Source: a virus. Taken from it: a stretch of DNA of 39,813 nt. Shown here one piece after another: positions 28,255 through 32,685 of this stretch. Below the pieces are notes generated by a model that did not search any database, was not told the DNA's origin, and was given only the letters and a program-made list of their open reading frames with translations. The DNA is taken from positions 1 through 39,813 of IMG/VR virus record IMGVR_UViG_3300010149_000048; one strand, 5' to 3'. Position numbers and translations under genes: made by a program. How positions within the stretch are numbered: position 1 is the stretch's first letter; every line of letters starts with the position of its first letter.

Positions 28255-28626
28255 CTACTCCTGTATATAAACTGATAAGTCTTGAAACTCTGTATAATTA
28301 CTTAATCTAAACCTTAAGTGGATCTCTATAACACCTTGTCTGTTGGGCGGTGACATCTCTAAGCTAGAAACAATAATTCTATTGTCACTTGCCTCTATTG
28401 CTCTAATTAAAGAAGACTTGATAGCACTGATTTTTTGAGAGTTAAAGTTCTTAAATAAATATAAATAACCTAGACTACCAAAATTAGGTGACATATACCG
28501 CTCACCCGCTTTAGTTAGTATTATTGCTTTTAGGTTATCTTTAATTTTGTCTATACCCTCAGTGGTAATAAAACTACCTCTTGGGCCAACCCTCAAAGGG
28601 AATGATAGTCCTTTTAAATTAGCCAT
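28255..28626 (-). CDS. gp25/gpW-like baseplate wedge protein
   Basis: The protein has 123 aa. The pattern IKDNLKAIILTKAGERYMSPNFGSLGY, IRAIEASDNRI and IHLRFRLSNYTE is characteristic of the gp25-like (gpW) wedge family, which binds the sheath and the wedge. It overlaps the end of the upstream gene by eight bases and precedes gpJ by three. A minor role in regulating sheath assembly is known for the family. Confidence 0.9.
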   Translation of the reverse strand: MANLKGLSFPLRVGPRGSFITTEGIDKIKDNLKAIILTKAGERYMSPNFGSLGYLYLFKNFNSQKISAIKSSLIRAIEASDNRIIVSSLEMSPPNRQGVIEIHLRFRLSNYTEFQDLSVYIQE

Positions 28627-29851
28627 TATTACGACCCCTTCTGACTTGTGTCCATCCAGTTCTAATATTGCCTTGATTTATGGGGTTGTCACCTAAATCA
28701 TCATTCTCTTTTTTGAGGCTTTTACCGCCTTCTCTAAACACATCACGCATAAATAGTTTACGGATTGCTTCTAGCTTTTGGTCACTACCACCTTCACCTA
28801 TTTGGAAATGTAAAGCAGTAGCCCCACTAAATGTATTCGCTTTAAAAACATTTTTATCTAGTTGAGTAGCTACCACTCCATCTGGTGCAGTGCCTAACTC
28901 GACCGAAGGAAATTTAGGGTCATTAGGTAAACTCATTATCACTTTAGCAAAATCTGCGTTAGTTCCTTTACCAACACAAGAAACTACATTCTGCCCCTCA
29001 CCAAGAGAAAAGAATGCAAGCAAATTGGCAACGGTATTTAATATTTGAGTGATAAGGTCTTTTATTCTCTGTATTCTTGCTAGTACTGCATTGATAATAC
29101 TGTTTAGTGCTTCGGCAAAACCTTTACCTTCGGAAAGCATTTTAATTAATTCATCTAACTTGTCTATAAGTTTTTTAATTGCAGGTAGGTCTGATAAGCC
29201 CACCTTAAACAAAAAATTAGGCTTTATAGAAGCACCTGTCTGCCTAAACTCATCCGTATCATAAACTGCTTTGCTCGAATTGAAGTTAAAGTCACTAGGA
29301 AACCCTAGTAGCAAGGATAATAAACGATCCAGCATTTGTTGCATGCTAGGTAAAGAAGGCAAGGTAAACATACTAATAACCGTCATAGCTGTGGAGGTAG
29401 ACTCTGCTATAGGTCTATTTTCGTCATTAACATCTAGGAAGGCCATACCTATATCATAAAGTATCTCATCTAGATTCCTTTGGGTCTTAAACTCCTGTGG
29501 GAAGTGGAATATACCTGAGATAGATGTGCCTACAAAAAAGTTTCTAATTGTTTGTAAGACCTCGATTATGCTTAAGACAAGAGCTTCAAAAAGATCTACA
29601 ACGATACCTAAGACGGTAGCAATCACCTCAACAAAATCTTGTACTAATTCTATTAAAGCACTCAATACCTCTATACCTTGTAAAACAGTTTCAGCCAACC
29701 CTTCAACAACATCTGGAATAGGTTGTAGAGCCTCTCTCACTTGTTCAGAAGATAAACCAACCCCATATAATACTTTAAATGTTGGATCTACATCTTTTAA
29801 GGCTGACTTAAAATCAGCCTCTCTTGAGAGTCCTCTTCTTACTGCTTCCAT
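28619..29851 (-). CDS. Baseplate-region helical protein of unknown function
   Basis: The protein has 410 aa with long hydrophobic and amphipathic helices (residues 40-100: VLSALIELVQDFVEVIATV, LGIVVDLFEALVLSIIEVLQ) and again around 190 and 250-300 (INAVLARIQRIKDLITQILN). The C-terminus is basic and polar. It starts inside the previous gene (38-base overlap) with only a weak GAGAG site. No family is recognised. Its position between the cyclase-linked gene and gp25 suggests a baseplate component or an assembly factor; the hydrophobic helices could also insert into membranes. Confidence 0.6.
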   Translation of the reverse strand: MEAVRRGLSREADFKSALKDVDPTFKVLYGVGLSSEQVREALQPIPDVVEGLAETVLQGIEVLSALIELVQDFVEVIATVLGIVVDLFEALVLSIIEVLQTIRNFFVGTSISGIFHFPQEFKTQRNLDEILYDIGMAFLDVNDENRPIAESTSTAMTVISMFTLPSLPSMQQMLDRLLSLLLGFPSDFNFNSSKAVYDTDEFRQTGASIKPNFLFKVGLSDLPAIKKLIDKLDELIKMLSEGKGFAEALNSIINAVLARIQRIKDLITQILNTVANLLAFFSLGEGQNVVSCVGKGTNADFAKVIMSLPNDPKFPSVELGTAPDGVVATQLDKNVFKANTFSGATALHFQIGEGGSDQKLEAIRKLFMRDVFREGGKSLKKENDDLGDNPINQGNIRTGWTQVRRGRNNG

Positions 29852-30146
29852 TAAGTTTCTCTCTTACTACGTGTGCATCTATTAGAGATTTTGTGTTATG
29901 AATCTCTTTGGTCACTAAAGCCCAAGAGATAAACTCAAATGTATCTTTTATTGTGGATTTTACAATGCTTGTGTCACCTTGTCCACTTTTCAATAAATCA
30001 TTTAATTTATCTAAATTATTTTTTAAATCAGTAGCAAAAACTTCAGTCGATATACCACGTTTCTCCCAAGTAGGCTCTACAACTTGATCTAGCTTATCTT
30101 TTAAGCCTTCAGCAAGCTCTATTTTTTTTACTAAATCATCATTCAT
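29814..30146 (-). CDS. Small helical protein of unknown function
   Basis: The protein has 110 aa, mostly helical and charged (VKKIELAEGLKDKLDQVVEP, KDTFEFISWALVTKEIHN), with a basic end. Its ATG at 30146 overlaps the cyclase-like stop as ATGA and has GAGG upstream, so it is probably translated with the cyclase-like protein. No family is recognised. It could be a partner of the cyclase or of the 410-aa protein. Confidence 0.55.
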   Translation of the reverse strand: MNDDLVKKIELAEGLKDKLDQVVEPTWEKRGISTEVFATDLKNNLDKLNDLLKSGQGDTSIVKSTIKDTFEFISWALVTKEIHNTKSLIDAHVVREKLNGSSKKRTLKRG

Positions 30147-30952
30147 GAGTACCTCATTATTAATTCTTTAAGCCAAGCGACCCAAGTTAAATCTACACCT
30201 AAAAAATAAGCGGTGATATCTCGATTATCTGACCATATAGCTTGTAAAAATGTAATTATAAAAGTAAAGATAACATAAAAACAGAAACATTTAGTAAAAA
30301 AAATAACAACATCAAACTTTGTCATATCTTTCCTAACTTGTTTACGTGGTGGCCTTGACACTCTTCGGACCTTAGAGTTTTCTTCAGGTAATCTAAAATC
30401 GGATTGGTTTACACCGACTGCGTGAACTAGCATTGGTTTTTTAACACCTTTGAGCTTGTATTTACCTAAAACTTTGAAGTGTGCATTTTTAGGTGTATAA
30501 GCATTTGTACGGCCTTCTGAAGCACTACGAGCATCGTTAGATAATAAAATTTGCCCCCCTCCCGCTAGTGACATTATCCTAGCCCCTATTGGCTTTGCCA
30601 TGCCCTCTAATTCAATCATTTTAGCACCTGCTTTAACAAACACGTCCTCATTTCTTTTTAAAACAACTTCACCCCAGTGTACACCAATCCTAGCCTGTAG
30701 ACCTGTACGGCAAGGTATAGCTAACTGATAAGCCAAAGCAAAATTAACTGCATCAATAGTACGATCAAAAATAATAAGAAAACCATCTGTTTTATCTATC
30801 TCTCTACCCTTAAACCTGTAAATTAACGTACGACACAACTTGTCGTGATTAAAGAAAACTTCAGCGGCTTTAGTACTACCATGTATCTCAATAAATCTAG
30901 TAGAGCCTACTAAATCTAATAACAATAAAGCTTTTAAAGTCTTCTGTATCAT
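30143..30952 (-). CDS. Class III adenylate/guanylate cyclase-like protein with C-terminal membrane helix
   Basis: The protein has 269 aa. The cyclase homology domain (about 5-180) has LLLLDLVGSTRF with metal Asp D13, EIDKTDGFLIIFD with D56 as the second metal residue and K54 as a possible base-selecting Lys, ARIGVHWGEVV, and GMAKPIGARIMSLAGGGQIL with R125. A trailing LGKYKLKGVKKPMLVHAV segment is typical of these domains. The usual Asp and Asn of the second half (the D-x-VN-x-AAR pattern) are replaced, as in a known bacterial subfamily with the AKP-x-AR pattern, so activity and substrate are uncertain. A basic linker leads to a transmembrane helix (about 215-239). AAGGA precedes ATG 30952. 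It sits inside the baseplate operon. A cyclic nucleotide signal, or a dead domain that binds nucleotide, are both possible. Confidence 0.85.
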   Translation of the reverse strand: MIQKTLKALLLLDLVGSTRFIEIHGSTKAAEVFFNHDKLCRTLIYRFKGREIDKTDGFLIIFDRTIDAVNFALAYQLAIPCRTGLQARIGVHWGEVVLKRNEDVFVKAGAKMIELEGMAKPIGARIMSLAGGGQILLSNDARSASEGRTNAYTPKNAHFKVLGKYKLKGVKKPMLVHAVGVNQSDFRLPEENSKVRRVSRPPRKQVRKDMTKFDVVIFFTKCFCFYVIFTFIITFLQAIWSDNRDITAYFLGVDLTWVAWLKELIMRYS

Positions 30953-31295: not shown

Positions 31296-32657
31296 TTACA
31301 CTTTAGATAGATAAACTGATTCAGATAGAATCAACGGTTGGGTAGGTGCGGGCGTAGTTAAAAATGTTAACTGTGCGGCGGTTAATGCAGTAGCCGCAGT
31401 AGCTGCCGCAGGAGGTATACTAGCAACTGCTGTTGATGCTCCGAGAAAAGTATTTAGTATAGTTGTCATAGTCTGTAAAAACGTCAACAACTGTATACCG
31501 CATACTGCATTCTCTTTTAATAATGGAACAGGCCCAACAGCTAAAGTAGGTGTTCTACCAATAGTATTCAAAGCACCTAAATACACTTGACCGCCTGGAG
31601 ATCCACCCCTAGCCTCAATACCATAAACGCTCAACTCTTGTGTAGGATCTCCTGAAACAAGTCTAGCCGTACCATTACTAGCGACTAGATTTAAAGAGGA
31701 GTCTATATAAGGCAACGCGGGTATACCTGTCGTATTATTAAAAGACATAAACCCCTTACCGTTTGAAACAATATCTACGTTAGAAAATGTGTTTAAAGAT
31801 ACTCGACTGCCTACGGTTAAATCTAATGTAGCATTAATGTTCCCTGTTAAAGAGCCTACATCTAAATCTACACCATTATCCACCTTAGACGTAACACTTG
31901 ATGTGTTATGTGTCGTTCCTCCTAAAATGTTGTTGGAAAGTTCCCCATTGATGTTTTTAGTGTGATTACCCCCTACAGTTTCAGTGCAATCCGTTCCGAC
32001 CTCTACTAATTTATCTGTACTAGAGAACTCTCTTATGGACTCTGCGTGACTTAATATTCTACCAGTAGAGATGATGTGTATCGTACCATCAGGTAGAATC
32101 TCGACATGACTACCGCTCTTGTGGTGGAGCTGTACACGTTCAGCACCTTTAGTGTCATCTAGTTCGAGCATATGCCCACTCTTAGTTCTTAGGACTGTAA
32201 CCTCGCCATATTGACCTTCAAAAGATGTAGCAGGTACTTTTTTATTCCCCTTCGGACCACCTGTATCACTGCCGTCATAAAAACCTTTTGCATGGGCAGG
32301 AACAGAGCTTCTATCATTCTGGAACTCAACATCTTCTTCAGCATCACTACCATCACTCCCATGCCCATCGTCCACTTCAGCGTAAAAGCCCCCTGTGTAA
32401 ATCAAGTAGTCTATTAAACCTTCCTCACACTCTACCCATACCATAGAACCAACTGGAGGTACACTGAAGAAGCCACAATCCCTACCTCCATAAAAAGGCA
32501 TACAAGGTTCTGCCCAATCAGATATACCATCGCCATATAAAGCAGGACAATGCACTCTTATACGACCAAGTCTCTTAGGGTCAAGGTTGTCTTCTACTCT
32601 TGCACGTCTTTTACCGTAAAAACGATTATAATATTTAGATTCATATTCAGGTAACAT
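31296..32657 (-). CDS. Baseplate spike protein with gpV/gp5 OB-fold
   Basis: The protein has 453 aa from ATG 32657 (GAGGTG upstream); a GTG two codons earlier is less likely. The N-terminal OB-fold shows NRFYGKRRARVEDNLDPKRL, GRIRVHCPALYG, WAEPCMPFYGG and VPPVGSMVWVECEEG. The middle has repetitive beta-helix-like strands (GDLTGNINATLDL style), which form the membrane-piercing spike. No lysozyme domain is present, unlike T4 gp5. It works with the hub protein encoded upstream. Confidence 0.9.
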   Translation of the reverse strand: MLPEYESKYYNRFYGKRRARVEDNLDPKRLGRIRVHCPALYGDGISDWAEPCMPFYGGRDCGFFSVPPVGSMVWVECEEGLIDYLIYTGGFYAEVDDGHGSDGSDAEEDVEFQNDRSSVPAHAKGFYDGSDTGGPKGNKKVPATSFEGQYGEVTVLRTKSGHMLELDDTKGAERVQLHHKSGSHVEILPDGTIHIISTGRILSHAESIREFSSTDKLVEVGTDCTETVGGNHTKNINGELSNNILGGTTHNTSSVTSKVDNGVDLDVGSLTGNINATLDLTVGSRVSLNTFSNVDIVSNGKGFMSFNNTTGIPALPYIDSSLNLVASNGTARLVSGDPTQELSVYGIEARGGSPGGQVYLGALNTIGRTPTLAVGPVPLLKENAVCGIQLLTFLQTMTTILNTFLGASTAVASIPPAAATAATALTAAQLTFLTTPAPTQPLILSESVYLSKV

Positions 32658-32685
32658 ATACACCTCTTTTTATAAATAATAACTC

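Follow-up and report, generated by a model that had tools for sequence, protein, structure and literature searches.

Cyclic nucleotides play a central part in the regulation of bacteria and in their immunity to phages, and what phages are mainly known to do with such signals is, to our knowledge, to destroy rather than to make them. Class III nucleotidyl cyclases act as dimers; their base-recognition pair is Lys/Asp in adenylyl cyclases and Glu/Cys in guanylyl cyclases. Closest by sequence to the cyclase domain described here is that of NCBIfam TIGR04510, a putative peptide modification system cyclase that is bacterial and mostly TPR-bearing. The known PycC enzymes of Pycsar systems have yet other base-recognition residues (PMC11224242), and the mycobacterial cyclase Ma1120 is active despite an Ala at the position of the transition-state Asn (PMC4215837). 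In pelagiphages an adenylate cyclase was described within a curli (T8SS) cluster, together with secretion genes, FecR and a histidine kinase, and an alphaproteobacterial origin was reported for it (PMC9599517). This was the only precedent for a phage-encoded cyclase that we found in the open-licence literature.

The DNA analysed here, below called the window, comprises the 39,813 bases of one IMG/VR virus record. It contains a gene for a cyclase-like protein (Table 1) on the minus strand, the plus strand of the same interval being full of stops. The product matched TIGR04510 with E 5.6e-52 over residues 5-197, at 177.3 bits against a curated cut-off of 400 and along the N-terminal 204 of the 814 model positions only. 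It also matched the LipJ profile (E 1e-17) and, in a sequence search of the PDB, Rv1900c (E 1.7e-13) and Ma1120 (about 1e-7). Its score with Pfam PF00211 was 17.6 bits, below the cut-off of 21.9, which was exceeded by the relatives L060, L048 and L093. An AlphaFold2 model built from 14 sequences had a pLDDT of 87.9, with most of the domain above 90, and agreed with Rv1900c at Z 24.6 and 1.7 Å rmsd over 171 residues (Foldseek E 2e-14) and with Ma1120 at Z 23. On sequence and modelling evidence the window ORF is confirmed as a predicted membrane protein of class III cyclase fold, the resemblance being well beyond chance. The preliminary description, which gave no strand, had proposed here a full cyclase homology domain with D13, D56 and R125 and a C-terminal membrane helix. 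The ORF, the three residues and a hydrophobic segment were all found where it had placed them, the TIGR04510 and Rv1900c matches agree with the domain, and the structure prediction that it had suggested as a check gave the cyclase fold.

Table 1. Features of the cyclase locus, in positions of the window.
Feature	Position	Strand	Basis or remark
Membrane-anchored class III nucleotidyl cyclase-like protein, 269 aa	30143..30952	minus	ORF, profile matches, AlphaFold2 model
Predicted cyclase homology domain, residues ~1-182	30407..30952	minus	1ybt/1ybu structure match over residues 2-188 and conservation
D13 codon	30914-30916	minus	cyclase residue, metal Asp
D56 codon	30785-30787	minus	cyclase residue, metal Asp
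R125 codon	30578-30580	minus	cyclase residue, catalytic Arg
C-terminal hydrophobic membrane segment, residues ~211-242	30227..30322	minus	hydropathy peak 2.41; model helix 212-240
Partner gene, 101 aa: N-terminal membrane helix, then long predicted helix	30958..31263	minus	directly upstream of cyclase; low-confidence all-helix model
Spike gene	31296-32663		cyclase falls between spike and wedge genes (gp25, gpJ)

In both the sequence and the structure alignments with Rv1900c, D13 and D56 corresponded to the metal Asp residues and R125 to the catalytic Arg. D53 occupied the adenylyl-cyclase Lys position, E114 the base-recognition Asp position and P121 the position of the transition-state Asn (His in Rv1900c), while the turn before D56 was one residue shorter than in Rv1900c. 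The aligned positions presumably have the functional roles established for class III cyclases. Disrupted metal residues in related phages had been named beforehand as a sign against a cyclase; D13 and D56, like D53, R88, H92, K111, E114, K120 and R125, did not vary in any of the 43 viral clusters, and D13, D56 and R125 were also kept in all 28 bacterial relatives.

The base-recognition pair D53/E114 follows neither the adenylyl nor the guanylyl subtype in any of the 43 clusters, so the substrate cannot be told from it. Bacterial relatives have D53 and E114 too, with mostly Pro at position 121; the pair is therefore a trait of the wider family, and decay in phages was rejected as the cause of the altered residues. 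Position 121 is Asn in 32 viral clusters, giving the usual Asn-x3-Arg pair, and Pro in the window protein and L002. The replacement of the second-half Asp and Asn, already noticed in the preliminary description, is thus real (E114, P121); the doubt about activity drawn from the Asn applies to the Pro of the window protein but concerns a minority, the Asn being kept in most viral members. By the precedent of Ma1120, its loss need not be fatal. The viral cyclase is under strong purifying selection (median dN/dS 0.06, range 0.024-0.129, 128 close pairs). Because the class III fold and the metal residues are conserved, synthesis of a cyclic nucleotide by the window cyclase is probable, and an effect on the second messengers of the host would be possible.

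The first IMG/VR scan with the window protein revealed one relative, L002, with the whole operon in the same order. The catalytic domains of the two are 72% identical, the highest value in the operon (30-55% for the other products compared), and the cyclase C-termini 35%; in another group the catalytic domain is as conserved as the terminase (77% vs 75%). Profile scans added L003, L006 and L012-L017, and in the final scan, for which the window subclade served as query, at least 118 IMG/VR contigs gave a match and 80 of them were retrieved; the scans rely on short exact patterns and their counts are lower bounds. In total, 99 cyclase ORFs (one record counted twice) were analysed, which formed 43 clusters at 90% identity and 24 at 70%. 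Contig-edge fragments apart, the proteins had a length of about 250-340 aa, and they scored 129-177 bits on TIGR04510 (cut-off 400). A C-terminal hydrophobic segment was present in 40 of the 43 clusters; of the other three, one was cut by the contig end and two fell just below the threshold.

In the maximum-likelihood tree the viral sequences formed one clade (bootstrap 100) nested within the bacterial TIGR04510-type cyclases. The subclade of the window and L002 adjoins the subclade with a downstream partner of two membrane helices (2TM) and the L003/L006/L012 subclade. Bacterial relatives were detected in 22 of 101 genomes from the order of L011, in 7 of 141 from the phylum of L009 and in 1 of 149 from the phylum of L008. 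No PHROGs family was found for any cyclase member tested, and INPHARED gave no good match, the sole one being an unannotated faecal contig (E 4e-5). The viral cyclases apparently represent a large family that was previously undescribed. A bacterial genome (L009/L133, G003 contig 69) has two adjacent cyclase-domain genes on opposite strands, one typical and the other without K111 and K120.

Between the spike gene and the cyclase of the window lies a gene for a small membrane protein that the preliminary description had overlooked. Its ATG is preceded by a ribosome-binding site, AAAGGAG, and its product is 51% identical to the counterpart at the same place in L002. A small protein with a membrane helix adjoins the cyclase in all 42 clusters with a readable neighbour, the start and stop codons often overlapping, and a scan from one partner type (the small upstream protein) found the cyclase directly downstream in 16 of 16 loci. 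There are two or three kinds of partner, three by sequence: the window/L002 type, located upstream; the L003 type, also upstream (11 clusters); and the 2TM type of about 150 aa, with two membrane helices and a long helix, which is downstream in 28 clusters and upstream in one. The first two have a short region with an R-x-G-R motif in common. Their homology was not accepted (hhalign probability 1.4%, borderline or mixed shuffle scores) and they were left as analogous; for the 2TM and L003 types the probability was 15%.

Basic residues follow the first helix of the L003-type partner, and a basic stretch precedes the C-terminal helix of the cyclase; because of this charge pattern the long helices of the partners and the catalytic domain are predicted to be cytoplasmic. 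A spanin or holin identity of the partner was rejected, the PHROG matches reaching only E 3e-4 to 2e-3 and falling on coiled-coil or membrane regions. A search of 369 genomes, run without a positive control, gave no copy of the 2TM partner in bacteria or prophages, and a promoter and terminator scan of one cassette gave signals too little above chance. Two phages have a third small membrane ORF with several helices, and it overlaps the cyclase gene at its 3' end (L006:6771-7094, L013:6753-7076). In L044, L045 (5607-5852) and L046, which are 73-85 kb relatives, a Cys-rich protein of 81-97 aa (CALCGLSPDxCPC) is encoded directly upstream of the cyclase, and a 2TM protein is conserved beside it on the opposite strand.

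The window has the gene set of a contractile tail, including a spike with Phage_base_V and gp5 C-terminal domains, gp25 and baseplate J, and, by inspection only, RecA-, DNA polymerase- and helicase-like replication genes. The cyclase lies among the tail genes where the preliminary description had placed it. In six relatives with the same operon (L018, L019, L021-L024) both cyclase and partner are missing between the spike and wedge genes. Three of these (L018, L019 and L021, near-complete, 73-85 kb) carry the cyclase elsewhere, with a 2TM partner, near kinase, methylase and ThyX-like genes; the remaining three are shorter fragments, in which a cyclase elsewhere cannot be judged. A simple contrast of empty and occupied sites, first drawn from the six, was dropped since three of them carry the gene elsewhere. 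Many other phages have the cyclase and a 2TM partner, in that order, between terminase and portal, and in others (groups L006, L013-L017, L037 and L040) the pair is on the opposite strand among head genes. The gene has thus moved between phage locations, and its placement in a tail operon, on which the first interpretation had leaned, says little about its function.

Several other features of these genomes should be mentioned. A conserved ORF of 100-112 aa with a C-terminal GTGTGxGTxS tail follows the spike in L018, L019, L021-L024 and L002 (4872-5201, between spike and u110); it is not in the window, where only about 33 nt separate the spike and the partner gene. The conserved 109-aa ORF recorded at the spike/wedge site of the six same-operon relatives and L002 falls in this size range. 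Between u110 and gp25 the window encodes a 410-aa protein (28619-29851) with weak tape-measure-like PHROG matches, which at 34% identity to L002 is among the fastest-changing products of the operon. Among the 35-38 kb records (L051, L060, L064, L056, L057, L070, L079, L080, L083, L086 and L087) many have the order terminase-cyclase-2TM-portal, and the terminase of L060 has no close relative among isolated phages (INPHARED, at most about 31% identity).

The best explanation, to which we give a probability of roughly 0.6, is that the cyclase and its membrane partner are an active inner-membrane module made in the infected cell and signalling to host receptors. The catalytic domain would face the cytoplasm, with the C-terminal helix anchoring the protein in the inner membrane. 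Two copies would pair, D13 and D56 of one forming an active site with R125 of the other, and would produce a cyclic mononucleotide from a nucleoside triphosphate. The small membrane protein encoded beside the cyclase, with its long and presumably cytoplasmic helix, would be a dedicated partner, most likely a scaffold or regulator of pairing, and the product would most likely act on host cyclic-nucleotide receptors. No cyclic-nucleotide-binding domain (PF00027) was found in 20 phage records, while it was present in 11 of 14 control genomes; the signal is probably received by a protein of the host, because the phage records encode no recognisable receptor. No PF00589 integrase was found in the same 20 records either, which, though most of them may be incomplete, fits virulent phages. 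Some observations sit less easily with an active module: D53/E114 is the pair of neither adenylyl nor guanylyl cyclases, one residue fewer than in Rv1900c makes up the turn before D56, the window protein has Pro at the transition-state position, the partner model is of low confidence and the partner types are not all demonstrably homologous. A broader proposal can be put forward only tentatively, namely that this is widespread phage signalling: a phage-specific cyclase of reverse topology, in which the catalytic domain precedes the anchor, would have a new substrate preference owed to the Asp/Glu pair and be controlled by a dedicated membrane partner, and virulent phages would use it to shut out competitors or to gain control of cyclic-nucleotide signalling in the host.

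Alternatively, the pair may be a phage-borne exclusion or defence module like Pycsar, in which the cyclase would sense membrane damage or a rival phage, and its small membrane partner would be the effector that leaks or depolarises the membrane. The two-gene layout with its constant linkage and the moron-like insertion on the opposite strand in the groups with head-gene locations agree with this. The 2TM partner has a weak, sub-threshold similarity to the SLATT_fungal 2TM effector (E 0.003-0.007), but its Pfam scores of 16.9-18.1 bits (cut-off 26.5) and NCBIfam scores of 12.8-16.7 (cut-off 35) stay below the curated values and other 2TM families score equally well; a PF18142 search of 151 genomes gave no match, in the controls as well, and is hence uninformative. 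The PADLOC PycC models match L048 (E 3e-7) and, weakly, L003, but gave no match to the window protein at E 0.1. The partner is without a cyclic-nucleotide-binding domain, unlike the known Pycsar receptors, and the cyclase itself is membrane-anchored, for which we know of no example among PycC proteins. We consider such a module unlikely. Assignment to PycC/Pycsar was rejected, there being neither a PycC match of the window protein nor a PF00027 receptor in the 20 records; the relation to Pycsar suggested in the preliminary description holds at the superfamily level only.

The cyclase might instead counter host defence, by dominant-negative pairing with host Pycsar or other class III cyclases or by flooding the cell with a competing nucleotide. 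Pairing of this kind would draw on the dimeric action of these enzymes, and the altered base-recognition pair could yield an off-target product. Phages are known to subvert cyclic-nucleotide immunity (PMC9117128), which adds to the case. However, a pure decoy should not retain all metal and catalytic residues in 43 clusters, and the homology to PycC is no closer than superfamily; we regard counter-defence as improbable. The same improbability attaches to a relative that has lost catalysis and is retained as a nucleotide sensor or a scaffold in the membrane: the replacements of Asn by P121, Lys by D53 and Asp by E114, with the shorter turn before D56, could be read in this way, but both metal Asp residues and the catalytic Arg are invariant, Asn121 is found in most members and the D53/E114 pattern occurs also in the bacterial family. 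Finally, a structural or injected baseplate protein is very unlikely because the gene relocates among phages: the window and L002 have it between spike and wedge genes, but it is absent from this site in six same-operon relatives, three of which have it elsewhere, and most other phages carry it close to terminase or head genes. The role on entry considered in the preliminary description is likewise not supported.

The membrane-anchored cyclase always adjoins a small membrane protein in many uncultured viruses, which suggests that many uncultured bacterial viruses manipulate the host through second messengers. A large, conserved cyclase family of phages, equipped with a partner of its own, would demonstrate that phages make such signals too. 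As judged from sequences and models, the novelty would lie in the setting of a known chemistry, that of class III cyclases: an architecture specific to phages and a membrane partner dedicated to the enzyme. Owing to the strict conservation, cyclase activity and substrate are directly testable.

Comparison with the known systems places the window cyclase as follows. With TIGR04510 the viral cyclases, whose clade is nested inside it, have in common the motifs EIDKTDG and GAKxxEVEGxxK, with D53 and E114 among their residues; they differ in architecture, the viral proteins (250-340 aa) having only a C-terminal helix after the domain, whereas the bacterial ones range from several hundred to 1,400 aa and, in those inspected, carry a membrane segment and TPR-like repeats. 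The mycobacterial adenylyl cyclases Rv1900c (LipJ) and Ma1120 resemble the window cyclase in fold, in the two metal Asp residues and in the catalytic Arg, and the canonical transition-state Asn is missing in all three (His, Ala and Pro, respectively). Their base-recognition pairs are different (Asn/Asp in Rv1900c, Lys/Asp in Ma1120, Asp/Glu in the window), and the matched structures, unlike the window cyclase, are without a C-terminal membrane anchor and a partner protein. Pycsar, in which PycC is combined with PycTM or PycTIR, is likewise a two-gene unit of a class III cyclase beside a membrane protein gene, but the window pair is phage-carried, its cyclase is membrane-anchored and its partner has no cyclic-nucleotide-binding domain. 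The curli cluster of pelagiphages, compared by description only, differs in its curli, FecR and histidine kinase genes, none of which was seen in the window or the inspected flanks; like the window family, its cyclase is phage-encoded, is carried with partner genes and has moved between phage families (PMC9599517).
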